NCBI GenBank assembly: GCA_028690755.1 | Contig: JAQVAO010000002.1 | Coordinates: 1-17,563, forward strand | DNA length: 17,563 bases | From: Patescibacteria group bacterium | GTDB lineage: Bacteria; Patescibacteriota; UBA1384; XYA2-FULL-43-10; CAINNR01 | Direction of reading: 5' to 3' | Part shown: positions 3,741 through 17,124 of the stretch, in pieces | How positions within the stretch are numbered: position 1 is the stretch's first letter | Layout of the letters: each line of letters opens with the position of its first letter | Program-made: the position numbers and the translations under genes | The notes under the pieces: model-generated | What the model was told of the DNA's origin: nothing | The model's database searches: none | What the model saw: only the letters and a program-made list of their open reading frames with translations

Positions 3741-3753
3741 TAGAAAAAGGTAA

Positions 3754-3778
3754 TGTGCACAGACATATGGCGGTTTTC
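3754..3778 (+). repeat. Left terminal inverted repeat (IRL)
   Basis: Contains GACATATGGCGG. Compared with the reverse complement of the right end (GACATTTGGCGG) the two match at about 18 of 25 positions. The repeat lies 13 bases upstream of the transposase start codon. Confidence 0.65.
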
Positions 3779-3791
3779 TAGAGGAACTTCT

Positions 3792-4745
3792 ATGCTAAAT
3801 AGCATGAGTGTACAAATACCTAAAAATGTAAAAGAAGAGCGACTTCGATGGGTTAAACCAATTGCAGATGGTCAAGTTAAACTAAAAGATGTAGCCAAAG
3901 TATGCGAACACGGAAAAAGAACATTAGAACGCTGGCTCTCCAATTACAGAAAACACGGTGAGTCTGGCTTAGAACCTAAATCAACCAGACCAAAAACCTC
4001 ACCAAAAGAAACTCCAATTCGTATTAAGAATAGAGTTATTGAGATTAGGAATGATACTAAAGAATGTGCAATGAAATTGAAATGGAAACTCGAAGACGAA
4101 AACATCTATCTGAACGAAAGAACAATCGGCAAGTTCATTAAGACCGAAGGATTAACTAGAAAATACAGGGTTAGAAAAGTTAATTACAAATACATTAGAG
4201 CAGAATTAAAACAAGGAGAACTCGTAGAGATTGATGTCAAATATATCCCAGATCCAATTGATGGAAAGCGGTATTATCAGTTCACTGCAGTTGATGTAGC
4301 CTCTAGATGGAGACTAATCATCCCATATGATAATCAATCAAACTACAATGCGATTAATTTCCTTCATGAAGTAATTAAAGTATTCCCACACAAAATCACT
4401 GCAATCAAGACTGATAATGCTGCCATATTCACAAACAGATATACCGGTTACCAAAAAAGTATAGATCCGCTTAACCCAAAACTTCATCCGCTTGATATTG
4501 AATGTCAAAGATTAAACATTATTCATTATCTGATTGATCCGGGAAAACCACAGCAGAATGGTACAGTTGAAAGAAGCCATAGAACTGATCAAGAGTACTT
4601 CTATGACAATACAATCTGTCAAACTTTTGAGGAACTAAAATACAAGATGAAACTTTGGAATATGTATTACAATGATTTACCTCATTGCTCACTTAAAGGA
4701 AAAACACCGAATCAAATGTTACAATTAACAAGAACAATTACTTAA
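3792..4745 (+). CDS. IS481-family DDE transposase
   Basis: A 317-aa transposase that cuts and joins the element's ends. An N-terminal helix-turn-helix (about 28-55, LKDVAKVCEHGKRTLERWL) binds DNA. The integrase core (about 140-270) carries the DDE triad: Asp148 in VEIDVKYI, Asp208 in IKTDNAAIF and Glu260 in NGTVERSHRT. The NGTVERSHRTDQEYFYD block and the downstream HCSLKGKTPNQML are typical of IS481-like transposases. Start: the ATG at 3792 has GAGGA seven bases upstream. An in-frame ATG at 3753 would begin before the inverted repeat and is disfavoured. The frame is intact to the stop. No accessory gene accompanies it. Confidence 0.93.
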   Translation: MLNSMSVQIPKNVKEERLRWVKPIADGQVKLKDVAKVCEHGKRTLERWLSNYRKHGESGLEPKSTRPKTSPKETPIRIKNRVIEIRNDTKECAMKLKWKLEDENIYLNERTIGKFIKTEGLTRKYRVRKVNYKYIRAELKQGELVEIDVKYIPDPIDGKRYYQFTAVDVASRWRLIIPYDNQSNYNAINFLHEVIKVFPHKITAIKTDNAAIFTNRYTGYQKSIDPLNPKLHPLDIECQRLNIIHYLIDPGKPQQNGTVERSHRTDQEYFYDNTICQTFEELKYKMKLWNMYYNDLPHCSLKGKTPNQMLQLTRTIT

Positions 4746-4829: not shown

Positions 4830-5678
4830 TTATTTGCTTTTCCACTCTTTTATCGCTTTTTCATATGCTTCATGAGTTCCAGTATCAAACCACTGGCCCT
4901 GGAATGGGTAGCCGAAAAGTTTACCTTCGAGAGCTAATTTGGGATAAATGTCATATTCTACCATCGCCTTGCCTTTTTTCGGTATGTATTGGTCGATCAC
5001 CTCCGGTTCCATTATCGCCATACCAGAATTTATCAAATTACTTGGAGCTTTTCCTTTTTCCGGTTTTTCTACAAAACCGATGATTTTGTTACCTTTGAGC
5101 ATTGCCACCCCGTAGCGTGATGGGTCAGAAACGGTCGTTAGAGCAACTGTCGCTAACCCACCGTGCTCTTTGTGAAAATTCATGAAATCACTTAAATCAA
5201 GATGGGATAAAATGTCACCCCAAACAATAAAAAAAGGTTCTTTTAAATACTTTTTAGCCAATCGAAGTGGTCCAGCAGTGCCAAGTGGTTTTTTCTCTTC
5301 AACATACTTTATAGAAAGGCCAAAATTATGACCGTCTCCAAAATAATTTTTAATTTTTTCTCCCTTATAACCGATCGCCATGACAATATCATTTACGCCA
5401 TGTGATTTTAACTGCTCCAAAACATGCAAAACCATCGGCTTATCATGAATCGGGAGCATCGCCTTAGGAAGCTCTAACGTGAATGGTCGCAATCGAGTAC
5501 CTTCTCCTCCGACAAGAAGAATGGCTTTTTTAATTTTTCCTATTCCCAGACCAGCCTCAATCAGATATTCTGCAGCATGAGATCGATTTCTAATTTTTTT
5601 ACCATCGACAACTTCATCGATTTTTTTGAAGAGCTCTTTTTTAATCGTAACAGTTAATTTTTCTCTTTCTTGAGCCAT
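4830..5678 (-). CDS. RHH-domain/NDP-sugar nucleotidyltransferase fusion
   Basis: A 282-aa protein with two domains. Residues about 6-45 (KLTVTIKKELFKKIDEVV, then NRSHAAEYLIEAGL) look like a ribbon-helix-helix DNA-binding unit of the CopG/Arc type: a basic beta strand followed by two helices. Residues about 50-282 are a sugar-phosphate nucleotidyltransferase (NTP_transferase family). It has GGEGTRLRP (57-65), the following PK (71-72), GTAG (133-136), WGD with metal-binding Asp155, VEKP (203-206) and FDTGT with Asp265. Family members make NDP-sugars such as dTDP-glucose or GDP-mannose from a sugar 1-phosphate; the sugar cannot be told. The ATG has AGGAG four bases upstream. It diverges from a small GC-rich gene across a palindrome-containing promoter region. 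It could be an enzyme that represses its own gene, or the RHH may only mediate dimerisation. Confidence 0.85.
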   Translation of the reverse strand: MAQEREKLTVTIKKELFKKIDEVVDGKKIRNRSHAAEYLIEAGLGIGKIKKAILLVGGEGTRLRPFTLELPKAMLPIHDKPMVLHVLEQLKSHGVNDIVMAIGYKGEKIKNYFGDGHNFGLSIKYVEEKKPLGTAGPLRLAKKYLKEPFFIVWGDILSHLDLSDFMNFHKEHGGLATVALTTVSDPSRYGVAMLKGNKIIGFVEKPEKGKAPSNLINSGMAIMEPEVIDQYIPKKGKAMVEYDIYPKLALEGKLFGYPFQGQWFDTGTHEAYEKAIKEWKSK

Positions 5679-6086: not shown

Positions 6087-6471
6087 CTAAAACCACCCAA
6101 GGACGACGATCTTTTTTATTAATTTTAATTGGAACTAAAAATCTTTCAGGAGCTTTTAAAAATATCAGGGTTCCGAAACGGCTGCTTGATTTTCTTTGCC
6201 AAAAATCATCATCGACACACAATTCTTTGCTGTATTCTTTACGCAAAATTGCGATCGACTCCGGAGTTAAATTGTCGTAATATAAAACATTATCGGCTAT
6301 CACTCTACCAATTACGTCACCGCCAGATTTTTTCAACAGAATCTCATCATCTTTGGAAATTTGTCCGTACGGCAAAACTCGCCCGAGGCTAAAGCGGCTT
6401 TCGATAGATTTTTTTCCAGAAATAATGTCATCTATCGCTGATCCGATAAAAATTGCAAGATGTCTTTTCAT
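6079..6471 (-). CDS. ASCH-domain protein
   Basis: A 130-aa soluble protein with an N-terminal segment SGKKSIESRFS (18-28) that matches the ASCH superfamily signature G-K-x-x-E-x-R (Gly19, Lys20, Glu24, Arg26). A beta-rich body follows (LPYGQISKDDEILLKKSG, DVIGRVIADNV). ASCH domains are PUA-like folds thought to bind RNA or modified nucleosides; some act as amidohydrolases on acetylated cytidine. The catalytic role here is unknown. No Shine-Dalgarno sequence precedes the ATG: the upstream bases are the T-run of the preceding terminator. The gene may therefore be expressed from a leaderless or read-through transcript. Its 3' end abuts the convergent terminator of the 80-aa gene. Confidence 0.75.
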   Translation of the reverse strand: MKRHLAIFIGSAIDDIISGKKSIESRFSLGRVLPYGQISKDDEILLKKSGGDVIGRVIADNVLYYDNLTPESIAILRKEYSKELCVDDDFWQRKSSSRFGTLIFLKAPERFLVPIKINKKDRRPWVVLEK

Positions 6472-6476
6472 AAAAT

Positions 6477-6504
6477 AAAAAAGAGTTAAAATGCACTCTT
6501 TTTG
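6477..6504 (-). terminator. Terminator after the PfkB kinase gene
   Basis: On the minus strand, AAAAAGAGT (6495-6503) pairs with ACTCTTTTT (6478-6486) around an eight-base loop and is followed by more T residues. It marks the end of the long glycolysis/hydrogenase gene run and lies just before the ASCH start codon. Confidence 0.65.
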
Positions 6505-6514
6505 TTTTTATTTA

Positions 6515-7549
6515 TTATTTAGTATATATTGACGCTTCGATTTTTACCAGTTTTTTATCTTTTTCAAGAATTTCCGAAAAACTGAGTAGTCCGGTTTGAG
6601 CTCCAACGCTACCAACAACCGAACCGGAAACTATAACTCCATATTTGAGTGATTTTTCAATCAAATCTCGATCGAGCACAAATCCTTGGTTTTTATCATC
6701 AAGTGAATTCTTGATAATATTGGCAGCGAAAGTACTGGCGAAAGCATCACCAGCACCAGTCGCTTCCACTCTTTTATCCCCAGACGATGCGATATTATAA
6801 AAGCGCTGGCCGTCATAACCTTTCGCTCCTTTTGCTCCATTGGTTACAATAATTATTTTTGTGCCTAACGAATGCACATATTTCATAACATCTTCTATTG
6901 TTGATTTCTTTGACATATCAGAAAGTTGATATGCTTCTTCTCTATTGACAAACAAGATGTTGCAGAGCTTCAACAATGGGATTAAATCCTTGACGGGTCG
7001 ACTGATTTGTCGGCTTCCAGGGTTCCATATTAGCCCACTGCCTTTTTTTGCAATTATTTCAATAACTCTATTTTCAACAATTTCTGATTTTTCAGCTAAC
7101 GGTCCAAGATATATCCACTTAGTATTAAGACTTTTTGTTGGGACATAATCAGATAGCTCATTGACTCCGTGATAAGTGAATATTGTTCGGTCGCCCTTAA
7201 AACTTAAAATGACTGATATGTTACTGTTAGATTCTTTTTTTTGCTTTACCATCTTGGTATCGACGCCAAAATTTTCTAAATAATGAATTGTTTTTTCTCC
7301 CTGGCTATCTTTTCCAACAGCAGAGATAATTCCGACACTTAAATTTAGTTTGGAAAAGTTAACTGCTGTATTTGCCGCGCAACCACCGACTTGGTAAATG
7401 ATATTTTCAATTGGAACTTTATCGCCGTAGCCAAAACATAAACCCTTTCCTGCCAAAAATACTCTGTCATCAATAATTTTTCCATCTTCTGGGAATATAA
7501 AAATATCTTCAAAACAATCACCTATTGTGACGACATCATACAATTTCAT
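6515..7549 (-). CDS. PfkB/ribokinase-family carbohydrate kinase
   Basis: A 344-aa kinase of the PfkB family, which phosphorylates sugars or nucleosides with ATP. Visible signatures are the N-terminal Gly-Gly motif GGCAANTA (55-62), an NREE stretch (202-205) and the C-terminal ATP/anion-hole motif ATGAGDAFAS (263-272) with catalytic base Asp268. Length is normal. The substrate cannot be decided from these motifs: ribokinase, fructokinase, adenosine kinase and PfkB phosphofructokinase share them. It starts five bases after the fba stop codon and is last in the run gap-hydB-hydA-pgk-fba, so a role in feeding hexose or pentose phosphates into glycolysis, including a possible fructose-6-phosphate kinase activity, is a reasonable inference. 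A terminator follows. Confidence 0.88.
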   Translation of the reverse strand: MKLYDVVTIGDCFEDIFIFPEDGKIIDDRVFLAGKGLCFGYGDKVPIENIIYQVGGCAANTAVNFSKLNLSVGIISAVGKDSQGEKTIHYLENFGVDTKMVKQKKESNSNISVILSFKGDRTIFTYHGVNELSDYVPTKSLNTKWIYLGPLAEKSEIVENRVIEIIAKKGSGLIWNPGSRQISRPVKDLIPLLKLCNILFVNREEAYQLSDMSKKSTIEDVMKYVHSLGTKIIIVTNGAKGAKGYDGQRFYNIASSGDKRVEATGAGDAFASTFAANIIKNSLDDKNQGFVLDRDLIEKSLKYGVIVSGSVVGSVGAQTGLLSFSEILEKDKKLVKIEASIYTK

Positions 7550-7554
7550 ATTTT

Positions 7555-8385
7555 CTACTCGATATTATTGAATAATCTTAAATACTTTTTTATTGTATTT
7601 TCAGCATCTTCTCTAGCGTCTGAAAGATAATCGCGCAAATCTTTATCGGGGTCATCAATATTTTCCTGCAGACCTTTTTTAAAAGATCTTTTTATTTGAG
7701 TGTCGATGTTAATTTTTCTAATACCAAATTTTATTGCTTGAACAATATCGCTTCCACTTAAACCAGAGGCACCATGAAGAACTAGTGGGACATCAACCAC
7801 TTGATCAATTTTTTTCAATAAATCAAGATCGATTTTTTCTTTTGTCGGACCACCGTGTACATTACCAATCGAAACAGCTAGCGCATCTACTCCGGTCAAT
7901 CTAACAAAATTAACCGCCTGATCAGGGTCAGTGTATTTTTGCAAAACTTTTTCTCTACCTTCTTCGCTTCTGCCAACAACACCGATTTCACCTTCAACCA
8001 AAGCACCGTACTTATGAGCTAAATCAACGACTTTTTTAGTTTCAGATACGTTATTTTCAAATAGCAAATCTGATCCATCAAACATCACCGATTTATAGCC
8101 AATATCAAGACATCGATTAATTAAATCAATTTCCTTGGCATGATCTAGATGAATAGTCAGTGGAACAGCTGACTCATCTATCAAAGTCTTTACTATCCCA
8201 AATAGCTCCTTTAGTCCAGCATATTCAATTGCTCCCGGCGTGGTTTGAACTATTAGGGGTAGCGACAGCTCTTCGGCAGCAGATACTATCGCTTGAGTAA
8301 TTTCTAAATTATTAGTATTAAACGCGCCAATACCAACATTTTTTTCTTCTGCCATTTTGTACAATTCACGTAGTGATATAAACAT
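7555..8385 (-). CDS. fba: Class II fructose-bisphosphate aldolase
   Basis: Zinc-dependent aldolase that interconverts fructose 1,6-bisphosphate with dihydroxyacetone phosphate and glyceraldehyde 3-phosphate in the cytoplasm. The 276-aa protein has the IHLDHAKE motif (Asp81 as likely catalytic acid, His82 as zinc ligand), EGEIG (131-135), the zinc/phosphate residues NVHGG (His177) and LHGASG (His204), and the phosphate-binding stretch GIRKINIDT (221-229). Related class II enzymes cleave tagatose bisphosphate and cannot be excluded, but the glycolytic neighbours favour fructose bisphosphate. The ATG has AAGGA four bases upstream. It lies 23 bases after pgk and 5 bases before the PfkB kinase, consistent with one operon. 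Confidence 0.92.
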   Translation of the reverse strand: MFISLRELYKMAEEKNVGIGAFNTNNLEITQAIVSAAEELSLPLIVQTTPGAIEYAGLKELFGIVKTLIDESAVPLTIHLDHAKEIDLINRCLDIGYKSVMFDGSDLLFENNVSETKKVVDLAHKYGALVEGEIGVVGRSEEGREKVLQKYTDPDQAVNFVRLTGVDALAVSIGNVHGGPTKEKIDLDLLKKIDQVVDVPLVLHGASGLSGSDIVQAIKFGIRKINIDTQIKRSFKKGLQENIDDPDKDLRDYLSDAREDAENTIKKYLRLFNNIE

Positions 8386-8408
8386 AGATTCCTTGGAATA
8401 TTTAGTTA

Positions 8409-9542
8409 TTAACTATCTTCATAATAGCCTAAAGCCAAAAGGCCAGGCAACTTTTTACCAGCTAGAAATTCTATTGTAGCGCCTCCGCCAGTAGAAACAA
8501 ACTTGTATTTATCGTACAAATTGTTCTTTCTGACAAATCCGACCGTATCTCCCCCGGCTACAATCGTAACATTGGGGTTCTTAGAGATCGATTGCGCTAT
8601 TCCAAGTGTTCCTGCCGAAAATCCATCTTTTTCACTCATGCCCATATTTCCATTCCAGAAAATTGTTTTAGCATTTGATATAATTTGAGCAAATTTTTCT
8701 ACCGATCTAGACCCAATATCCAAAACTGAAAAACGTCCGTCGGGCATAATATACTTTTTATCATCGACGGGTAGAACTAATTTATCTTTGGCAATATCAA
8801 TAATCTCTTCAACTATTGCTTCACAATTGGTTTCCTTAATTGAAACACCGACCTTCTCACCTAAAAAATATCTGATAGTATTTGCAATCGCACCGCCAAC
8901 AATAATTTTGTCGGATCTAACAACAAATTTTCTGATTAACCCAATTTTATCTTTAATTTTTGCACCGCCTAAAACTAAAACTAAAGGATGTCTGGGGTTA
9001 GCGCTTAAAGTTGAAAGCATTGCTACTTCTTTTTCAAGTAAAAATCCTGGATAACTTGGCAAAAAATTTGTAATTGCTTCAACCGAAGCATGAGCCCTAT
9101 GGGAAACAGCAAATGCATCATTGACATAAAGCTCTCCGTAACCAGAGATTATCTGAGCAAAAGTCTGATTATTGTGCTCCTCCTCTGGCTGCCAACGTAA
9201 ATTTCCAAGTACCAGTATTTGACCCTTTTTCATTTTGAGAATGTGTTTTCTTACATTTGACTCAATAATATAATCGGTGGCCGATACAGGAAATTTTGCT
9301 AACAGTGAAAACCTTTGAGCCAAAATTTTTGTTGATAAACTTGGGATTATCTCCCCGTCAGGACGCCCGACATGAGTGCCTATGATAATTCTACAACCAT
9401 TATCACGTAAATATTTTATTGTTGGAATCGTAGCAGATATTCGATAATCGTCCAAAATACCATCCTGTCCAAGAGGAACATTCCAATCAACGCGTAAAAA
9501 AACTCTTTTCCCAGTCAAATCGATCTCTCTAATGCTTTTCAT
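8409..9542 (-). CDS. pgk: Phosphoglycerate kinase
   Basis: Transfers phosphate from 1,3-bisphosphoglycerate to ADP, the first ATP-yielding step of glycolysis. The 377-aa monomer has the N-terminal substrate-binding motif RVDWNVPL (17-24), the HVGRP basic patch, a GGAKIKDK stretch and the C-terminal GGDT loop of the nucleotide domain. Length is slightly short of the usual 390-400 residues but both lobes are present. The ATG at 9542 lies 17 bases after the hydA stop codon with a weak AAGAAA upstream. It follows the hydrogenase genes and precedes fba, so the enzyme's upstream partner GAPDH is encoded on the other side of the hydrogenase pair. Confidence 0.96.
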   Translation of the reverse strand: MKSIREIDLTGKRVFLRVDWNVPLGQDGILDDYRISATIPTIKYLRDNGCRIIIGTHVGRPDGEIIPSLSTKILAQRFSLLAKFPVSATDYIIESNVRKHILKMKKGQILVLGNLRWQPEEEHNNQTFAQIISGYGELYVNDAFAVSHRAHASVEAITNFLPSYPGFLLEKEVAMLSTLSANPRHPLVLVLGGAKIKDKIGLIRKFVVRSDKIIVGGAIANTIRYFLGEKVGVSIKETNCEAIVEEIIDIAKDKLVLPVDDKKYIMPDGRFSVLDIGSRSVEKFAQIISNAKTIFWNGNMGMSEKDGFSAGTLGIAQSISKNPNVTIVAGGDTVGFVRKNNLYDKYKFVSTGGGATIEFLAGKKLPGLLALGYYEDS

Positions 9543-9559
9543 TTTTCTTGAATATCATA

Positions 9560-11302
9560 TTATTTTTTTCTTCTTTTCGTAAATTTGCGATGGAACAAAC
9601 GACCAGCCCTACCCTCCAGTGGTTTAGAATCTAGGGCTGAATATAGCTTTTTCACATCATTATTTTCATGGGCTTTTCTGATTGGTTTTTCCTTGTCGTC
9701 AGTATAGAAACCAGCTTTTCTCTTCTCACGTATTTTACTATCTGTTGGGATTGGTTGGCCACCACCACCAAGACAACCACCTGGACAAGCCATAACTTCA
9801 ATATAATTATATCTCACAACCCCAGATTTTAAATCTTTAATTAGTTTAGCTGCATTTTTTAGTCCGGAGACGACTGCGACTTCAAGCTTAATTCCATCGA
9901 TTTCGACAACTGCTGACTTGATTCCATCAAGGCCACGCACCTCGGAAAAATCAATTTTATTTATCTTGCCATCTGACAATTGCGAGGAAACAGTCCTGAG
10001 AGCCGACTCCATCACCCCACCAGAAGCCCCATAAATAGTTCCCGCGCCACTTGAATTACCTAGTGGTGAATCGAAATCACTATCAGCTAAATTTTCAATA
10101 TCCAAATTGTGTTTTTTAATTAATCTACCTATCTCTCGGACTGTAAGAGAATGGTTTATCTCTGGATTGTAAGACTCTTTTAGCTCTGGTAATTTTGCCT
10201 CATATTTTTTAGCGACACAAGGCATTATCGCAACATTAATTATTCTTTTGGGGTTAACTTTTATCTTCTTAGCAAAGAAACTTTTAACCGCACAGGCCAA
10301 ACAATGAGTTGGCGATTTTGTGGTTGTTAAATTTGGTATTAACTCATGATGAAAAATTTCAACATATCTAACCCAAGCTGGGCAACAAGACGTGAACATC
10401 GGCAGATTTTTTTTTGACTCAAGCCTTTCTATCAATTCAGCAGCCTCCTCAAGGGTCGTAATATCAGCGCCAAAATTAACATCAAAAACATAGTCAAAAC
10501 CGATATGTTTTAAAGCGGTAATTAATTTCTTTTCAAGATTTATCCCGGGCTCTAAACCAAAAAGTTCGCCAATTGAATATCTGGTCGACGGTGCGAACTG
10601 TGCAACTAAAATATTTTTTTTATTCTTTTTTTCAAGTAGTTTTTCAACCTCTGGAAGTTCAGTTTTTTCCTGGAGCGATCCCGCCGGGCAATGTAAAATG
10701 CACTGGCCGCAAAAAACACAATTTGTGTCTGCAAAACTTTTTCCATCTTTTGGACCAAAAACGATTGAGGATCCGCGATACTCAGTTTTTAAAATATCAA
10801 GTCCAGTAATTTGTTGACAGGCCGATATACAGTTTCCACATTCAATACATTTTGAAGAATCCCAATGTATCGATGGGGTTTTCGAATCAATTTTAAATTT
10901 TCTTCTTCTCTCAGAGAATCTCGACTCGGTAACTCCAAATTCCTTCGCAAGTTTTTTTAATTCACAATCATATTTCCAATTACAATCACTACACTTTTGA
11001 ATATGATCAGAAAGAAGCATTTCAAGATTTAATTTTCTAATTCTCTTTACCTTGGGCGTATCCAGTTTAATCTCCATCCCCTCAGTTACTGTGGTATTAC
11101 ACGCAGTTGCAACAAAAAACCCTCCCTTGTTGCAAGAGATTTCGACCAAACAAAGTCGACAGCTGCCATTTGGCTCTAAATCAGAATGGTAACAGAGAGT
11201 TGGAATGTGAAAATTATTACGCTTGGCAAGATCTAGAACACTCTCGCCATACAATGCGGTAATTTTTTTGTTATTTAATTTGACTTCAAACGACTTTGTC
11301 AC
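9560..11302 (-). CDS. hydA: [FeFe] hydrogenase catalytic subunit HydA
   Basis: A 580-aa hydrogenase of the CpI-like M3 layout. The N-terminal [2Fe-2S] domain has Cys37, 48, 51 and 68. A His-ligated [4Fe-4S] site has His100, Cys104, 107 and 113. Two ferredoxin clusters use Cys152/155/158/162 and Cys195/198/201/205. The H-cluster domain has L1 TSCCPAW (Cys307 ligand, Cys306 proton-relay position), L2 MPCVAKKYE (Cys362) and L3 EVMACPGGCLGGGGQP (Cys506, Cys510). Ligand spacing equals that of C. pasteurianum CpI as I recall it. It makes or consumes H2. The loop normally SPQQ reads SPTHCLAC (330-337), which is unusual. The C-terminus is Arg/Lys-rich instead of the common HTHY ending. It starts at a GTG overlapping the hydB stop (TAGTG), so the two are translationally coupled. 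Maturases HydE/F/G are not in the window. Confidence 0.95.
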   Translation of the reverse strand: MTKSFEVKLNNKKITALYGESVLDLAKRNNFHIPTLCYHSDLEPNGSCRLCLVEISCNKGGFFVATACNTTVTEGMEIKLDTPKVKRIRKLNLEMLLSDHIQKCSDCNWKYDCELKKLAKEFGVTESRFSERRRKFKIDSKTPSIHWDSSKCIECGNCISACQQITGLDILKTEYRGSSIVFGPKDGKSFADTNCVFCGQCILHCPAGSLQEKTELPEVEKLLEKKNKKNILVAQFAPSTRYSIGELFGLEPGINLEKKLITALKHIGFDYVFDVNFGADITTLEEAAELIERLESKKNLPMFTSCCPAWVRYVEIFHHELIPNLTTTKSPTHCLACAVKSFFAKKIKVNPKRIINVAIMPCVAKKYEAKLPELKESYNPEINHSLTVREIGRLIKKHNLDIENLADSDFDSPLGNSSGAGTIYGASGGVMESALRTVSSQLSDGKINKIDFSEVRGLDGIKSAVVEIDGIKLEVAVVSGLKNAAKLIKDLKSGVVRYNYIEVMACPGGCLGGGGQPIPTDSKIREKRKAGFYTDDKEKPIRKAHENNDVKKLYSALDSKPLEGRAGRLFHRKFTKRRKK

Positions 11303-12294
11303 TAGAAATCCTCGGGAAATAAATTTATTGCGCTAATAACCGGGTTAGCAACCGAAGCTCCAAGAGGGCAAAAACTGCTTTCTTTTGCCGCCTCGGCTAT
11401 AGATTTAATTTTTGAGAAAATTTCTTCTTTATCCCACAGGCTTTTTGATTCAGAAATGTTATTTAACTCCTCTGCTATTCGATATATGCCCTCTCTACAA
11501 GGTGTACACTTTCCACAAGATTCATTTTTTAAAAATATTATTGATTGGCAGAGAGCGTTAAAAACATTCCGTCTTTTGCCAAATATTTCTACTGATCCGG
11601 TGCCGGTAATCTGTTTATTAAATTCTCTTCTTGGTAAAAAACAGCCGGAAAGACCCCCTATTCTAGCAAATTTAATTTTTGATAAAATTTTTTCTGAATT
11701 AATTATCTCTTCAACAGTAGAACTTAGATCGCTTTCTACAACTTTTTTTGGAATATAATCACCAAACAATGAATAAAATCTTTTGGGCTGATAATCACCG
11801 TCAGCTATCAGCTTAACTCTGTAAAAAGTTTCGGCATTATTAATTAATGTCGGATAACCAAAAAGGCCGCTGTTTGTAGGATAAGGCGGCTTAAGCCTGG
11901 GTTGACGAGTTTTGCCCTCCATTACCTGAAGCATTACTGTTTCTTCGCCACATAGATACCGACCATTATCGATGAAAACTTCAATCTTCTTGCCTTTCAA
12001 ATTTTTCTCAATTTTCTTTTGGTAGTATTTGTACTTATCATTCAAGAAAATATATGATTTTTGAGCATTAACAAATTCAGCAGCGATTTCTATGCCGGAT
12101 ATCATTTTCGACAGATGGCGCTGAATTACAAATTCATCTTTAAAAACTCCAGGCTCTCCTTCTGATAAATTGCAAACAACAAACCGCTTTTTTTCGCAAG
12201 AATCTTTAACTGCTTGCCATTTGGTTGCTGTCGAAAAACCAGCACCACCAAGACCGACTAGCCCGGATTCCTTCAAAGCTTTAATGATATCCAT
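11302..12294 (-). CDS. hydB: NuoF-like NADH-binding flavoprotein, hydrogenase subunit HydB
   Basis: A 330-aa protein equal to the core of NuoF/HydB. It has the FMN site GLGGAGFSTATKW (14-26), the NADH-binding stretch with CGEET (115-119) and SGLFGYPT (142-149), and the N3-type [4Fe-4S] ligands Cys260, Cys263 and Cys266 (ESCGKCTPCREG) plus Cys309 (SFCPLG). It oxidises NADH through FMN and passes electrons to HydA. Compared with typical HydB proteins (about 600 aa) it lacks both the N-terminal thioredoxin-like [2Fe-2S] domain and the C-terminal ferredoxin domain, and no separate HydC/NuoE gene is visible nearby. It begins nine bases after gap and overlaps hydA by one base. The ATG has no clear Shine-Dalgarno sequence, suggesting coupling to gap. 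Confidence 0.92.
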   Translation of the reverse strand: MDIIKALKESGLVGLGGAGFSTATKWQAVKDSCEKKRFVVCNLSEGEPGVFKDEFVIQRHLSKMISGIEIAAEFVNAQKSYIFLNDKYKYYQKKIEKNLKGKKIEVFIDNGRYLCGEETVMLQVMEGKTRQPRLKPPYPTNSGLFGYPTLINNAETFYRVKLIADGDYQPKRFYSLFGDYIPKKVVESDLSSTVEEIINSEKILSKIKFARIGGLSGCFLPRREFNKQITGTGSVEIFGKRRNVFNALCQSIIFLKNESCGKCTPCREGIYRIAEELNNISESKSLWDKEEIFSKIKSIAEAAKESSFCPLGASVANPVISAINLFPEDF

Positions 12295-12303
12295 GACAAT
12301 GTT

Positions 12304-13299
12304 TTAACTATGAGAAATCAAACTCGCTATTTCCACCAATCTTTTTGAATAACCCCATTCATTATCATACCAGGCAACAACTTTGATCATATTGCCACCA
12401 ACAACATTAGTCAAAGAAGAATCAATTATTGCCGACATCTCATTTCCAATAAAATCGCTGGAAACCACCGGGGCATCAGTAACTGCCAAAATGTTTTTCA
12501 AGCCGCCCTGAGAAATTTTCTCAAATTCATTATTGATTTCTTCAATAGTCGTTGGTCTTTCTAATACCGCAACAATATCAGCGATTGATACAATAGGCGT
12601 TGGCACCCGAATAGACAATCCATCAAACTTATTATCAAGATCTTTGATAATTTTAGCCACCGATTTTGCCGCTCCAGTAGTTGTTGGCACGATGTTAATC
12701 GCCGCTGCTCTAGCTCGCCGCAGATCTCTATGCGGACCATCAACCAAATTTTGATCGGCAGTATATGAATGTATCGTGGTCATCAAAGACTGTTTAACAC
12801 CAAATTTATCGTTCAAGATTTTTATTATTGGAGCAATACAATTTGTTGTGCAAGAAGCGTTTGAGATAATTTTCTCATCCTGATATTGATCTTCATTTAC
12901 ACCGATCAGATAAGTCGGGGTTTGGTCATCCTTAGCCGGAGCCGACATGACAACTTTTTTTGCGCCAGCCGAAATATGATCGCTACATTCTTCAGTTGTT
13001 AAAAAAACTCCCGTTGATTCAATAACTACATCTATCCCCAGTGCTTGCCATGGCAAATTTTTGGGTTCTTTCTCTTGATAAAAGTGAATTTTTTTACTAT
13101 CAATATTTATTGAATTATTGAATATTTCAATTTTTTTGTCATAAATTCCATAAACAGAATCATAGCGAAGCAGAGAAACAAGGGTTTCTACATCAGTTAA
13201 ATCATTGACAGCCACTAAATCAAAACCGGGGGTATCAAGAGCAATCTTTGCAGCTGCCCGACCGATTCTACCGAAACCATTTATCGCTAATCTTGCCAT
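12304..13299 (-). CDS. gap: Glyceraldehyde-3-phosphate dehydrogenase, type I
   Basis: Oxidises glyceraldehyde 3-phosphate to 1,3-bisphosphoglycerate with reduction of NAD+. The 331-aa protein has the Rossmann motif INGFGRIGR (6-14), the catalytic SNASCTTN with Cys150, and His177 in IHSYT. Asp33 at the end of the second strand (AVND) favours NAD over NADP. The C-terminal WYDNEWGYS is typical. It starts at an ATG with a strong GGAGGG sequence four to six bases upstream, 15 bases after tpiA. The following genes, hydB and hydA, can take the NADH it makes, which is the key functional hint of this cluster. Confidence 0.97.
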   Translation of the reverse strand: MARLAINGFGRIGRAAAKIALDTPGFDLVAVNDLTDVETLVSLLRYDSVYGIYDKKIEIFNNSINIDSKKIHFYQEKEPKNLPWQALGIDVVIESTGVFLTTEECSDHISAGAKKVVMSAPAKDDQTPTYLIGVNEDQYQDEKIISNASCTTNCIAPIIKILNDKFGVKQSLMTTIHSYTADQNLVDGPHRDLRRARAAAINIVPTTTGAAKSVAKIIKDLDNKFDGLSIRVPTPIVSIADIVAVLERPTTIEEINNEFEKISQGGLKNILAVTDAPVVSSDFIGNEMSAIIDSSLTNVVGGNMIKVVAWYDNEWGYSKRLVEIASLISHS

Positions 13300-13314
13300 A
13301 TCCCTCCAAAAAAA

Positions 13315-14058
13315 CTATACAATTTTTTTATACTCAGCAACTATCCGACAAATTTTGATAAATTCTTTTGCCTTTAAACCACTTCGACCGACTAAAACTC
13401 CGTCAATCTCCGGTCGGCTAACAAATTTATAAACATTCGCCGCGTCTACACTACCGCCGTAGAGTATTGGAGTTTCAAAATGAACAACTTCACGAAGGGC
13501 AGTAATAATTCTTGCAGCATATTCGGGGGTAGCCGGCTCTTCTGAACCTATTGCCCAAACCGGCTCATAGGCAATTATTAGATTTTTGTAATCCTCTTTC
13601 TTGATGTCAGAAATTTCCTCTTTCAGCTCCTTCACAACCTCAGAGGCCGAACCTTGGCTTTGTTTTTTTTCTCCAACACAAATAATTGGAGAAAGAGAGG
13701 CATCGATTGCTGCAGCCACTTTCCTGGAAATTATCGGCAAATCTTCGTCAAAATTTTTTCTTCTTTCTGAATGACCAATAATGACATATTTGGCGATATC
13801 TCTAATCATCGGGGCAGATATCTCTCCGGTAAATTCACCTTCGTTCATATAATGAATATTCTGAGCGCCAAGAGATAGATGATTTATATTTTTATGAATA
13901 ATGTGGACAATTTCCGTCAGCCAGACTGCTGGTGGACAAAGAATAATTTCTAATCCAGAGATATTTTCAACACCATCACGAATTGCCGTCGACAAAACAA
14001 CGGCGTCAGAAAAGCTCGTATACATCTTCCAGTTTGCAATCACTAGCGGTCGACGCAT
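13315..14058 (-). CDS. tpiA: Triose-phosphate isomerase
   Basis: Interconverts dihydroxyacetone phosphate and glyceraldehyde 3-phosphate. The 247-aa TIM barrel carries the full catalytic set: Lys11 in ANWKM, His96 in IIGHSERR and Glu165 in AYEPVWAIG. The C-terminal phosphate loop LYGGSVDAANV and GVLVGRSGLKA are also present. The ATG at 14058 has GGAG about eight bases upstream. It lies 38 bases after the EF-Tu-domain gene and 15 before gap, in the common tpiA-gap-pgk linkage, here interrupted by the hydrogenase genes. Confidence 0.97.
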   Translation of the reverse strand: MRRPLVIANWKMYTSFSDAVVLSTAIRDGVENISGLEIILCPPAVWLTEIVHIIHKNINHLSLGAQNIHYMNEGEFTGEISAPMIRDIAKYVIIGHSERRKNFDEDLPIISRKVAAAIDASLSPIICVGEKKQSQGSASEVVKELKEEISDIKKEDYKNLIIAYEPVWAIGSEEPATPEYAARIITALREVVHFETPILYGGSVDAANVYKFVSRPEIDGVLVGRSGLKAKEFIKICRIVAEYKKIV

Positions 14059-14096
14059 AAATCAAACTCCAAATATGGAGCCCCTCCAACTAATTA

Positions 14097-14357
14097 TTAT
14101 ACAATATAGACTTTGTAACCTTCGCGGGCCTTTTCCGTGACTTCAAGCCCGACTTCGTCACCTTTTTTTGCCGCCTCGATCGGGCTGCGATCAATTTGCA
14201 TTGAAGTAACCTCTTGCTCAAACTCATTACCACCACCGACGATCTTAACACGATCGCCGACCTTTAAAGCGCCGGTGAGTTTGACAACAGCCGCTGAAAC
14301 ATGTGGAAAGTAGTGGGTGATTTCACCAATAACCTTCCCCTTGCTTGGCTCGTTCAT
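14097..14357 (-). CDS. EF-Tu domain-II-like small protein
   Basis: An 86-aa protein from the ATG at 14357, chosen because AAAGGAG lies four bases upstream; an in-frame ATG at 14390 would overlap yvcK and lacks that signal. Residues about 6-86 resemble the beta barrel of translation GTPase domain II: GKVIGEITHYFPHVSAAVVKL, ALKVGDRVKIVGG, and a QIDRSPIEAAKKGDEVGL stretch. There is no GTP-binding domain. Similar stand-alone proteins are annotated as translation elongation factor-like, and the same barrel occurs at the C-terminus of U32 peptidase-type proteins. A role in binding tRNA or a ribosomal partner is possible but unproven. It sits 13 bases after yvcK, in the same run as tpiA. Confidence 0.75.
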   Translation of the reverse strand: MNEPSKGKVIGEITHYFPHVSAAVVKLTGALKVGDRVKIVGGGNEFEQEVTSMQIDRSPIEAAKKGDEVGLEVTEKAREGYKVYIV

Positions 14358-14370
14358 GTCACTCCTTTCA

Positions 14371-15399
14371 TTATTTTCTTCTGACCTCATTATACAACAA
14401 TATTAATTCTTTCGCTAATTTTTCCCTGTCATGATAAAGAGGGAATTTACGGTCAATTACATCCTTTTTAACTATTCGATAATCAGAAAATTTATCGAGA
14501 TCGAAAGTGATATTATTTATCTCTCCGATTTCCGCTACTTTCTTTGATCTGCGAACAATTTTATTGTTAACCAAAATGTAATCGAATATTTTCTCCTTTG
14601 CGTGTTCTTCTATCGCTTTTATATGTTCTGGCACTGAAAAATTTTCTGTTTCGCCTCTTTCGGTTGAAATATTTACAACAAAAACCCGGATTGCTTTTTT
14701 GTTGTTTTTTATCGCTTTGACAATCCCCGGAATTAATAAATTGGGGATTATTGAAGTAAATAGGCTACCCGGACCAATAATTATTATATCCGCCTCGGAA
14801 ATTGCTTTGACCGCTGGTCTATATGGAGCAACTTTTCTTTTAGTAAAAAAAACTTTTTTAATTTGTTTGTATTGATATGGAATTTTGTCTTCACCAACTA
14901 TTTTTGATCCATCGCTGTAACGAGCAGCAATTTGCACATCATCTAGAGTTGATGGATATACCACACCGACTGCATTAAGCATCCGGTGAAGTGACTTGAT
15001 TGCCTTTTCAAAGGAATTGTATTTCTTTGACAATGCCGCAATCCAAATATTACCAAGTGCGTGATCAGTCAAAAAACCGCTACCCTTAGGAAATCGGAAT
15101 TCAAAAAGATCGCTAAATTCTTGCCAATCGTCAGATAGCGCGGCTAAACATTTTCGAATGTCACCTGGTGGCAATATTTTAAACACTTTTCTGATCACAC
15201 CCGAACTTCGTCCGGAATCAGAAACTGCAACTATCGCCGAGATACTTTTGGAATATTTCTTTAGCCCACTCAACAAATTGGAAAGTCCAGTCCCTCCGCC
15301 AATAGCAGCTATTTTAATATCACCCCGTCCATATCTAGGATCTGCCGGATCAAAAGCCAGAGAATACCACCATTTTTTAAAATTTTTTGATAAATTCAT
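14371..15399 (-). CDS. YvcK/CofD-like (GlmR-type) protein
   Basis: A 342-aa protein of the YvcK/CofD-like family. Members bind UDP-sugars and in Bacillus help route carbon toward peptidoglycan precursors during gluconeogenic growth; the related CofD is a 2-phospho-L-lactate transferase. Visible motifs are IGGGTGLSNLL (33-43), VSDSGRSSG (59-67), LPPGDIRKC (76-84), HALGNIW (113-119), IGPGSLFTSI (208-217) and NISTERGETENFSVPEHI. The N-terminal extension (about 27 aa) contains WWYSLAFDP; I cannot assign it. The ATG overlaps the uvrC stop codon (ATGA), so translation is coupled. The commonly seen rapZ (yvcJ) and whiA (yvcL) neighbours are absent here; uvrC and glycolytic genes flank it instead. 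Confidence 0.88.
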   Translation of the reverse strand: MNLSKNFKKWWYSLAFDPADPRYGRGDIKIAAIGGGTGLSNLLSGLKKYSKSISAIVAVSDSGRSSGVIRKVFKILPPGDIRKCLAALSDDWQEFSDLFEFRFPKGSGFLTDHALGNIWIAALSKKYNSFEKAIKSLHRMLNAVGVVYPSTLDDVQIAARYSDGSKIVGEDKIPYQYKQIKKVFFTKRKVAPYRPAVKAISEADIIIIGPGSLFTSIIPNLLIPGIVKAIKNNKKAIRVFVVNISTERGETENFSVPEHIKAIEEHAKEKIFDYILVNNKIVRRSKKVAEIGEINNITFDLDKFSDYRIVKKDVIDRKFPLYHDREKLAKELILLYNEVRRK

Positions 15400-16664
15400 T
15401 TTGTTAAACCTTTTCGATGAAGAGTTCTGTAGTAATTTTGAGAAAAACGATGTGCCTCATTTCTAAGCTCAATTATTAGCATCATTAAATCTTTATTATT
15501 TTTAAAGTATTCTGACAATTTCAGACTAGAAAAATGTAATTCATCCTTTTTGCGGTCAATCCCTTTGGCAATCGCTACTATCGGAATTTTTAGCTCTAAA
15601 TTCCTTAGAATTTTAGACACAACTCTCAGATGTTGTACTCCCCCATCAATTATTATTAGATTTGCCATTGGCCAGTCATTTTTTAAACGCCTTTCAATAA
15701 TTTCTGCAGTCATTGCGATATCATTTTGTTCATTAATGGTTTTAATTTTAAATTTCTTATATTCTTTTTTATCAATTTTACCAAGACTGGCAACGGTCAT
15801 TGCACCAACAGCAAAATCTCCACCAATATTTGAAATATCATAAGCTTCAATTCGTGGAAAATTGGCGAAATTCTGAAAATCGGAAAAACTGTCCTTAATA
15901 CCAAGTGGATAACGGTTTAAATGAGACAATGCGAAAATTTTGTCGCGCAAAATTTTCGCTTGTTCAAATTTCTTTTCCTTACTTAAATTAAACATTTTTT
16001 TCTCTAGATTTTTAATGATTTTTTTCTTATTGCCCCGTAAAAAATCAATCAAAAAATCTAGCTGCTCCAAGTTTTCGTTTTCCACAGCAACACAGGGCGA
16101 TAAACATAAATTCAAATCACCATAAAGACATGCTCGCTTTATTTTGCTTTGTCGCAAAAACTTTGTCTGAGAACAGTTTGTATAAGGAAAGATTTTTCGT
16201 AGAATCCTCAATGCTTTTTTAACTAAATCACCAGAGTAATAAGGGCCAAAATAAATGATATCTCTTTTTTTTATACGAATATTTCTTGATCTAACAAGTT
16301 CAACATTGGGATATTTTTTTTTGTCAATCTTAATCAGATAAAAACTTTTGTCGTCTTTTTGTCTGCTATTGTATTTAGGTTTTTGCTTATTGATTAGCTC
16401 GGCTTCTAAAAGTATAGCCTCAATTTCTGAATCAGTCGGAAAAATCTTTATCTGATTAATTTTATTGACCATTTGAAAAATTGCTTCGGAACGATTTTCT
16501 CGCAGTTCTTCCAAGCGATTAAAGTACGATTTCACCCTACTTCGAAGATTTTTTGCTTTGCCAATATAGAGAATATCGCCTTTTTTATCGATAAAAATAT
16601 AAACACCTGGGAGGGTGGTAATCTCCCCCCTTGCTAATTTCTTTATTTTCTCATTTATGTCCAT
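15396..16664 (-). CDS. uvrC: UvrC excinuclease subunit, C-terminally short
   Basis: Nucleotide-excision-repair nuclease that makes both incisions with UvrAB. The 422-aa protein has the GIY-YIG domain (GVYIF at 20-24, YIGKAKNLRSR at 33-43). It has four Cys (164, 179, 187, 191), spaced like the [4Fe-4S] site of UvrC, and a UVR helix pair (about 220-245, FEQAKILRDKI). The RNase H-like nuclease is present with Asp276 in YDISNIGG, Asp340 in IIIDGGVQHL and His405 in NEAHRF. It ends just after HRKGLTK, where other UvrC proteins (about 600 aa) continue into the helix-hairpin-helix domain, which is missing. The frame ends in TGA inside yvcK's start. No Shine-Dalgarno is clear before the ATG at 16664. 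A short form of this kind appears common in CPR genomes. Confidence 0.93.
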   Translation of the reverse strand: MDINEKIKKLARGEITTLPGVYIFIDKKGDILYIGKAKNLRSRVKSYFNRLEELRENRSEAIFQMVNKINQIKIFPTDSEIEAILLEAELINKQKPKYNSRQKDDKSFYLIKIDKKKYPNVELVRSRNIRIKKRDIIYFGPYYSGDLVKKALRILRKIFPYTNCSQTKFLRQSKIKRACLYGDLNLCLSPCVAVENENLEQLDFLIDFLRGNKKKIIKNLEKKMFNLSKEKKFEQAKILRDKIFALSHLNRYPLGIKDSFSDFQNFANFPRIEAYDISNIGGDFAVGAMTVASLGKIDKKEYKKFKIKTINEQNDIAMTAEIIERRLKNDWPMANLIIIDGGVQHLRVVSKILRNLELKIPIVAIAKGIDRKKDELHFSSLKLSEYFKNNKDLMMLIIELRNEAHRFSQNYYRTLHRKGLTK

Positions 16665-16752
16665 CGTCAGACATAATACGCTTGATCAGAGAAAAATTCA
16701 ATCGCAGAAAATAAAAAACCGATTCGATAATAGGTCAAAATTTCTAATAAAA

Positions 16753-17124
16753 TTAGCTTTTCCAAAGGCCGTGAATATTACAATAGGCTCTGGCATAATC
16801 AGCATTCTTGGAACAAAAAGTATTCTCGGCCCTGTCGCCCGGTAAAAACTCATGGCGGCAAACTTCCTTGCCAGAAATTATCTCAACCCATTCAATATAA
16901 TGCTGTTCTTCCATCGGGTGAGGAACTGATCCGATTTTAACCTTGGTGTTCTCTCCAGATTCAATTATCGGTCGATGTTTTTCAGTCAAATTTTCTTCAT
17001 CAACTTTTTCGTCCTGTTTGACCATTGGTTGCCCACAACAGACTAGTTCACCTTGGCCGGTGTGAACTAATTCGACGATATTGCCACAAACTTCGCACTT
17101 ATAAATCTCCAGTTTTTTAGTCAT
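16753..17124 (-). CDS. dfx: Desulfoferrodoxin (2Fe superoxide reductase)
   Basis: Reduces superoxide to hydrogen peroxide without making oxygen, an anaerobe's defence. The 123-aa protein has both iron sites. Center I is the desulforedoxin-like CEVC...VCCG (Cys10, 13, 29, 30). Center II has EKH (Glu48, Lys49, His50), His69 and His75 in SVPHPMEEQHYIEW, and Cys115/His118 in YCNIHG. The intact Glu-Lys pair is the catalytic loop of superoxide reductases. The ATG has AAGGAG about four bases upstream. It is 88 bases upstream of uvrC on the same strand, so it may be the first gene of that run or separate; I see no clear terminator in the 16665-16752 gap. A divergent gene begins 87 bases away. Confidence 0.95.
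   Translation of the reverse strand: MTKKLEIYKCEVCGNIVELVHTGQGELVCCGQPMVKQDEKVDEENLTEKHRPIIESGENTKVKIGSVPHPMEEQHYIEWVEIISGKEVCRHEFLPGDRAENTFCSKNADYARAYCNIHGLWKS

Follow-up and report, generated by a model that had tools for sequence, protein, structure and literature searches.

Why should genes for a hydrogenase lie between two consecutive steps of glycolysis? The question is raised by a 17,563-bp stretch of DNA from a Patescibacteria group bacterium (contig JAQVAO010000002.1 of assembly GCA_028690755.1; hereafter 'the window'), one whole contig of a 568-kb genome that is held in 95 contigs and is 82% complete, in which hydB and hydA stand between gap and pgk. The arrangement is genuine, it is kept in relatives, and it hints at a functional link. 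We propose, at an even chance, that HydB and HydA (together HydBA) make up a compact [FeFe]-hydrogenase of two subunits that does not bifurcate electrons, an outlet from glycolytic NADH to H2, which obtains the [2Fe] half of its H-cluster without recognisable HydE, HydF and HydG maturases. Absence of these maturases extends over nearly all hydrogenases sampled from the candidate phyla radiation (CPR).

Hydrogenase genes in a glycolytic gene run

Seven genes follow one another on the minus strand: tpiA (13315..14058; triosephosphate isomerase, the first glycolytic gene of the run; PF00121, 237.5 bits), gap (12304..13299; type I glyceraldehyde-3-phosphate dehydrogenase; TIGR01534, 421.4 bits, cut-off 367.2), hydB (11302..12294), hydA (9560..11302), pgk (8409..9542; phosphoglycerate kinase; PF00162, 370.2 bits), fba (7555..8385; class II fructose-bisphosphate aldolase; PF01116, 303.5 bits) and a gene for a PfkB-family sugar kinase (6515..7549; PF00294, 120.8 bits; tested NCBIfam models all under cut-off). 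HydB, of 330 amino acids (aa), is a NuoF-like subunit for flavin mononucleotide (FMN), NADH and a 4Fe-4S cluster, and matches PF01512 and PF10589 only; HydA, of 580 aa and with a GTG start, is a group A [FeFe]-hydrogenase catalytic subunit (TIGR02512, 470.8 bits, cut-off 405.95; PF02906, PF02256, Fer2_4 and NADH-G_4Fe-4S_3). Successive gaps measure 15, 9, −1, 17, 23 and 5 bp, the negative value being a 1-bp overlap in which the hydB stop codon TAG and the hydA start codon GTG have a single G in common. A consensus scan of positions 6400-15500 returned 36 promoter-like sites (28.9 in shuffles, standard deviation 5.1) and 11 terminator-like sites (6.1, standard deviation 2.4); no terminator-like site fell within the gaps of the run, and one minus-strand promoter-like site (9583-9554, 9/12 matches) extends into the hydA-pgk gap.

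HydA was found above cut-off in all four genomes of the window's family, and all four, belonging to three genera, keep the order tpi, gap, hydB, hydA, pgk, fba, so that an artefact of one assembly was rejected. Gene order, strand, coordinates, short gaps and overlap are all as the initial annotation had given them, and the gap-hydB-hydA-pgk order, whose conservation it had proposed to survey, is not unique to this assembly. Family HydA proteins are 63–68%, and HydB proteins 58–61%, identical to those of the window. Additional open reading frames (ORFs) occur in three of the four runs: an ion-channel-like one of 134 aa after hydA in G001; 210 and 111 aa before hydB and 370 aa after hydA in G002, whose run holds Bro-N-like, RhuM-family and 1383-aa CarboxypepD_reg genes (L035:5602-6234, 9543-10655, 12764-16915); and 95 aa before hydB and 107 aa after hydA, both without a Pfam match, in G003. 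Tight packing is therefore specific to the window and the order general. Non-synonymous divergence (dN) between G001 and G002 was 0.142 for hydA, compared with 0.124 (hydB), 0.085 (gap), 0.140 (fba), 0.152 (tpi) and 0.215 (pgk), synonymous divergence being mostly saturated; the hydA value lies within the range of the glycolytic genes, which suggests that HydA is under about the same constraint as the glycolytic enzymes.

Across the order, a HydA match at E ≤ 1e-3 was present in 5/11 genomes. Six of the seven genomes from outside the family (G004, G005, G007, G008, G009 and G010) carry instead a four-gene [NiFe]-type cluster, comprising 4Fe-4S beta, NAD-binding gamma, small delta and large alpha subunits, which adjoins pgk on the opposite strand (L038:3201-7047, L039:2695-6681, L040:8342-13110, L041:10613-14941, L043:2458-6206 in G005 and L044:3570-7433 in G004); subunits were identified by Pfam for part of the genes and by similarity to the G009 genes for all six clusters. 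Two additional ORFs separate beta from pgk in G005 and G010. In G004, G005 and G009 gap flanks the cluster on the side away from pgk, which places the cluster between these two genes, together with some further ORFs in G004 and G005; in G007, G008 and G010 gap falls outside the stretch examined. The seventh genome, G006, has a gap-pgk spacing of ~9 bp with nothing in between. A hydrogenase-type cluster is therefore found beside pgk in 10/11 genomes of the order (four [FeFe], six [NiFe]-type), and the recurrence of a [NiFe]-type hydrogenase at the same position in sister families suggests that the position marks a hydrogen outlet of glycolysis.

Beyond the order, HydA was detected at E ≤ 1e-60 in 23/379 genomes sampled from the phylum, and a scan of named genomes, in which 131 of 351 pattern matches were confirmed and 80 were retained, added nine distinct ones, making 32 CPR HydA genomes; 65 of the 80 loci were non-CPR and formed the comparison set. 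Duplicates, recognised by the length of the contig and the position on it, were merged (L073 = G237, L076 = G296), one locus of unstated phylum (L058) clusters with CPR HydA, the HydA of G067 is truncated by a contig end, and ORF calling in the fetched loci was mechanical and took the longest start. A tpi, gap, pgk or fba gene lay near hydA on the same strand in 11/32 CPR loci versus 0/65 non-CPR loci (mean scanned length 13.6 and 12.7 kb, respectively), the smaller CPR genomes raising the chance of proximity somewhat. For the 7/28 outside the family, at 3% per genome, a binomial estimate that ignores kinship gives 1.5e-5. Independent cases number about five, since the window's family supplies four of these loci, G072, G129 and G222 belong to one related group, and RA.bin4 and G358 are neighbours in the HydA tree. 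In that tree, a quick one with SH-aLRT support only and several rows on long branches, a branch with support 99 sets 30/32 CPR rows apart; the exceptions, G029 and G067, possess a long HydB together with a HydC.

Some loci departed from this arrangement. In L153, L154 and L155 (G072, G129 and G222) HydA is short (473–494 aa) and lacks the N-terminal 2Fe-2S part, no hydB is present in the stretch, a thioredoxin-like ORF and an ORF of 64–76 aa lie between gap and hydA, and in two of the three a short-chain dehydrogenase lies between hydA and pgk. Mobile carriage was examined only lightly: the HydB profile found no relatives in viral contigs, and HydA matches in 344 plasmid records were all below 60% identity (38.6–40.5% for the five listed). 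A 48-base phage match was also seen.

HydB and a proposed electron route

Compared with bifurcating HydB, the window's protein is without thioredoxin-like 2Fe-2S and C-terminal Fe-S domains; it aligns to residues 184–552 of the 626-aa chain 7p5h_B (AlphaFold2 model, pLDDT 89.2). HydB was found in 24/32 CPR stretches, plus a contig-edge fragment (L117); 22 of these proteins have 324–368 aa and two have 601 and 668 aa, and among non-CPR HydB 41/45 have at least 414 aa. The 22 short proteins form one tree group (support 100/100, and 100 in a second tree). Residues that distinguish the two kinds of enzyme are given in the parts of PMC7311640 consulted: at 232, 234 and the NADH/FMN site, non-bifurcating HydB has T or S, then K, S or A, then Y, whereas bifurcating HydB has A or E, then M, then F; GGPSG is present in bifurcating HydB and missing from the non-bifurcating kind. 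That paper numbers the Y site 367 (T. maritima HydB); here it was placed as the residue before V/I-C-G-E-E, 312 in 7p5h_B, the mapping being our own. Three of the four non-bifurcating marks are present in the window's HydB (K52 at 234, Y113 at the NADH/FMN site, and GGLSG); at 232 it has V50. The same K and Y, and the absence of GGPSG, are shared by all 22 short CPR proteins, whose residue at 232 is V in 17, T in three, M in one and L in one; the two long ones have the full bifurcating set (A, M, F, GGPSG).

HydC-type PF01257 occurs in 2/32 CPR HydA genomes, G029 and G067, which are also those with long HydB; the four family genomes gave no PF01257 match, and no NuoE-family match was obtained among the neighbouring ORFs of 95–477 aa submitted in the search for HydC. 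The model for NADH-dependent [FeFe]-hydrogenase of group A6, NF040763, scored 686.6 bits, under its cut-off of 765. The best reading of these sequences is that HydBA would carry electrons from NADH to H2 without ferredoxin. HydB and HydA would assemble as a two-subunit complex, in which the FMN of HydB would oxidise NADH; electrons would then pass, presumably much as in complex I and HydABC, from FMN to the 4Fe-4S cluster of HydB, to the 2Fe-2S cluster and Fe-S chain of HydA, and to the H-cluster, where protons would be reduced to H2 if the reaction runs in the direction assumed here. The [2Fe] half would be supplied by an undescribed route or by partner cells, giving a complete H-cluster in HydA. 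On this proposal the place of HydBA among glycolytic genes reflects its role in recycling NADH from the glyceraldehyde-3-phosphate dehydrogenase reaction. A ferredoxin-free reaction requires low H2, and a dependence on H2-consuming partners is predicted; for purified S. aciditrophicus HydAB, 2.2–40.2 Pa H2 is stated in the consulted parts of PMC7311640.

A membrane-protein family accompanies many CPR hydAB genes. Clustering of ORFs up to 7.5 kb from hydA placed it in 15/32 CPR loci; with L161, recovered by a profile search, the count is 16/32 CPR versus 0/65 non-CPR loci, with 15/16 members on the same strand within ~3 kb of hydA (for example L054:11709-12239, L075:3793-4302, L084:12144-12698 and L111:810-1358). 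Nine of the 15 members match the energy-coupling factor (ECF) S-component family PF12822 at E ≤ 0.01, the top one slightly under the curated cut-off; no match was found to NCBIfam at E ≤ 0.01, nor by the family profile to PDB sequences. The AlphaFold2 model of the L054 member (not of a window protein; pLDDT 86.4) is nearest to TmRibU, the S subunit that binds riboflavin (TM 0.69/0.71, Foldseek E 2.4e-3), followed by other RibU forms and ThiT, with no Foldseek match at E ≤ 0.001. To judge by the predicted fold, from which alone the substrate is deduced, the family may take up riboflavin and so supply the FMN of HydB. The sequence stretches examined from the family to which the window belongs contain no member.

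Maturases and the active site of HydA

HydE, HydF and HydG are all essential according to the consulted part of a review (PMC6212873). In the consulted parts of a CPR survey covering [NiFe] enzymes (PMC7304191), 'FeFe' is absent from the main text, and no report of CPR [FeFe]-hydrogenases without maturases was found, judging by title or start of abstract, among the papers listed in a search whose scope mostly excluded subscription journals and preprints. Thresholds for maturases were E ≤ 1e-3 in the order and, over the 32 HydA genomes, 1e-40 (HydF), 1e-8 (HydG) and 1e-20 (HydE). Within the order, HydF and HydG were above cut-off in 0/11 genomes, the listed HydF matches being confined to positions 1–189 of 392, the GTPase part, and HydE was above cut-off only in G007 (G007:C40:45178-46188), which has no HydA match. 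A HydE fragment in G001 scored 26.8 bits, and one G009 protein (G009:C1:36784-37836) gave sub-cut-off HydE (177.9) and HydG (39.7) matches with no HydF or HydG beside it. Among the 32 HydA genomes the sole full set was that of G036, with contiguous HydF, HydE and HydG at C1:245-3920 (L170:179-4019), HydE and HydG (544.5 bits) being above cut-off and HydF slightly under (318.8 bits, cut-off 325.55). Its sister in the HydA tree, G296, 93% complete, is without maturases, so G036 may have gained its set, or the 13-kb contig that carries the set may be misbinned (GC content 0.40, against 0.43 around the hydA of G036). Of the 20 HydA genomes with a completeness of 90% or more and a contamination of 5% or less, 19 lack HydF and show no HydG above cut-off; two of these, G072 and G215, each consist of one contig (915 and 853 kb). 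G029 and G067 (L157, L159), with the bifurcating residue set, gave no HydE, HydF or HydG match at the thresholds used. As controls, all three maturases were above cut-off in 3/3 non-CPR genomes (two Oceanirhabdus, one Finegoldia), and in each maturase search 1/14 control genomes was above cut-off (Thermotoga maritima where named).

The active site of HydA was compared using CpI (C. pasteurianum) numbering transferred through alignment, at positions that we take to be H-cluster ligands or proton-path residues. The window's HydA keeps C300, C355, C499, C503, C299, E279, E282, R286 and K358, and deviates at S319 (T), F417 (Y) and Q325 (T). Across CPR, C299, E279, C355, K358 and E361 are kept in 32/32 HydA, C300 in 31/32 and M353 in 30/32, and M497, C499 and C503 in all 31 not cut by a contig end; S319 is T in 24/32 (S in 65/65 non-CPR). 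At the position of C300, residue 307 in the window, Ser stands in 30/65 non-CPR proteins (TSCSP form). Judged by these residues, the comparison argues against a dead HydA and favours a working H-cluster in CPR HydA.

The initial annotation had proposed a dedicated NADH-to-H2 outlet, to be doubted if maturation genes were absent and HydA inactive. The outlet is supported in part. It gains from the conserved order, the [NiFe]-type clusters at the same slot, the 11/32 versus 0/65 loci and three of the four HydB marks; the search for maturation genes in the family came out negative, and the kept active-site residues speak for an enzyme that is not dead. Several observations weigh against it. In the family's four genomes, three of which are 95–99% complete, no HydE, HydF or HydG scored above cut-off. 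The active-site pocket has drifted, F417 being Y in 26/32 CPR and F in 65/65 non-CPR proteins, R286 being kept in 26/32 and 65/65, and Q325 in 16/32 and 41/65. The V at 232 in the window's HydB fits neither published pattern, and NADH to H2 is unfavourable unless H2 stays low. Finally, of the six [NiFe] alpha subunits, four keep both CxxC motifs and those of G004 and G005 have lost both, so that hydrogenase-like genes can persist at this slot without a metal site. The choice lies between a [2Fe] cofactor that arrives by an undescribed route or is supplied by partner cells, and a different function for HydA. The wider proposal, of a CPR-wide [FeFe] clade active with a complete H-cluster though mostly without HydEFG, its [2Fe] coming through an undescribed pathway or from host or neighbouring cells, and exchanged with [NiFe] enzymes at one glycolytic locus in the window's order, is tentative and on balance improbable.

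The foremost alternative, which we consider unlikely but a serious contender, is that HydBA holds Fe-S clusters only, with no [2Fe], and is an NADH-oxidising Fe-S protein with another acceptor, the hydrogenase fold being kept for structure. It would account for the lack of maturases in 31/32 HydA genomes, for the drift at Q325, R286 and F417, and for the alpha subunits without CxxC in G004 and G005, and CPR complexes related to group 4 without metal-binding cysteines have been published (PMC7304191, in the parts consulted). It sits poorly with the retention of C299, E279, K358 and E361 in 32/32, M353 in 30/32 and M497 in the 31 uncut proteins. These residues presumably serve only [2Fe] binding or proton transfer.

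Less probable again is that maturases are present and were missed, being divergent from the models or on unbinned contigs. In its favour, the window's genome is 82% complete, the HydF of G036 scores slightly under its cut-off and G009 has a sub-cut-off HydE-like protein; but the G036 set was detected with all three members at once, 19/20 of the more complete HydA genomes, two of them single contigs, lack HydF and HydG, and in the order the threshold was already 1e-3, with HydF matches only within 1–189 of 392.

That HydBA is an electron-bifurcating enzyme using ferredoxin and NADH, with a missing subunit encoded elsewhere, is very improbable and was rejected: the best solved-structure match of HydA is HydA1 of a bifurcating hydrogenase (8a6t, 522 bits), but PF01257 occurs in 2/32 HydA genomes and 0/4 in the family, and HydB is without the extra Fe-S domains and GGPSG and has K and Y. 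Accidental insertion into the run without co-expression, for which the unrelated ORFs in relatives' runs (such as the RhuM-family gene in G002) and the promoter-like site reaching into the hydA-pgk gap could be cited, is scarcely credible and was likewise rejected, given conservation across three genera, [NiFe] or [FeFe] genes at the same place in 10/11 genomes and recurrence in other CPR lineages (11/32 versus 0/65).

Neighbouring genes, known relatives and significance

Elsewhere in the window, a transposase near the IS481 family (3753-4745, plus strand; 200.3 bits, cut-off 224) lies between tig and a nucleotidyltransferase gene. The minus-strand gene at 4830-5678 encodes a sugar nucleotidyltransferase-like protein, with 76–86% identity in five relatives, whose first ~45 residues resemble, by eye, a ribbon-helix-helix repressor domain. 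The product of 16753-17124 (minus strand) is presumably a desulfoferrodoxin, which would suit an oxygen-exposed anaerobe.

HydBA most resembles the non-bifurcating NADH-dependent HydAB described in the consulted parts of PMC7311640, with a group A HydA, a NuoF-like HydB with K and Y and no GGPSG, and predicted independence of ferredoxin. In S. aciditrophicus, however, a NuoE-like part is fused to HydB, and in S. wolfei HydC is a separate protein, and the window has neither; position 232 is V, unlike in those enzymes, and those parts of the paper report no lack of maturases. Bifurcating HydABC (Thermotoga maritima, 7p5h; Acetobacterium woodii, 7q4v; 8a6t) is homologous over almost the full length of HydA and, in HydB, over the NuoF core, but the window has no HydC, none of the thioredoxin-like or C-terminal Fe-S domains of HydB, and non-bifurcating residues. 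Group A [FeFe]-hydrogenases of Woesearchaeota (PMC8421398, consulted in part) likewise belong to small-genome prokaryotes and keep the cluster cysteines, and the strings 'matur', 'hydE' and 'hydF' are absent from the main text as consulted; they differ in being mostly trimeric, with a NuoE-like gene, and assigned to bifurcating group A3. CPR group 3b [NiFe] enzymes (PMC7304191 and PMC10811913, both consulted in part) are four-subunit and cytoplasmic in Berkelbacteria, with the same make-up as at the slot in six genomes of the order, where assignment to 3b follows from subunit make-up rather than from a classifier; their catalytic subunit is unrelated to HydA.

A clade that keeps the catalytic residues without HydEFG would imply that the H-cluster can be assembled or acquired by a new means, perhaps through the sharing of a metal cofactor among cells, or else that the hydrogenase fold has been put to a new use. 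The swapping of unrelated hydrogenases at one glycolytic place is good genomic evidence for H2 release as a means of disposing of glycolytic NADH, which would tie these small fermenters to H2-consuming partners.

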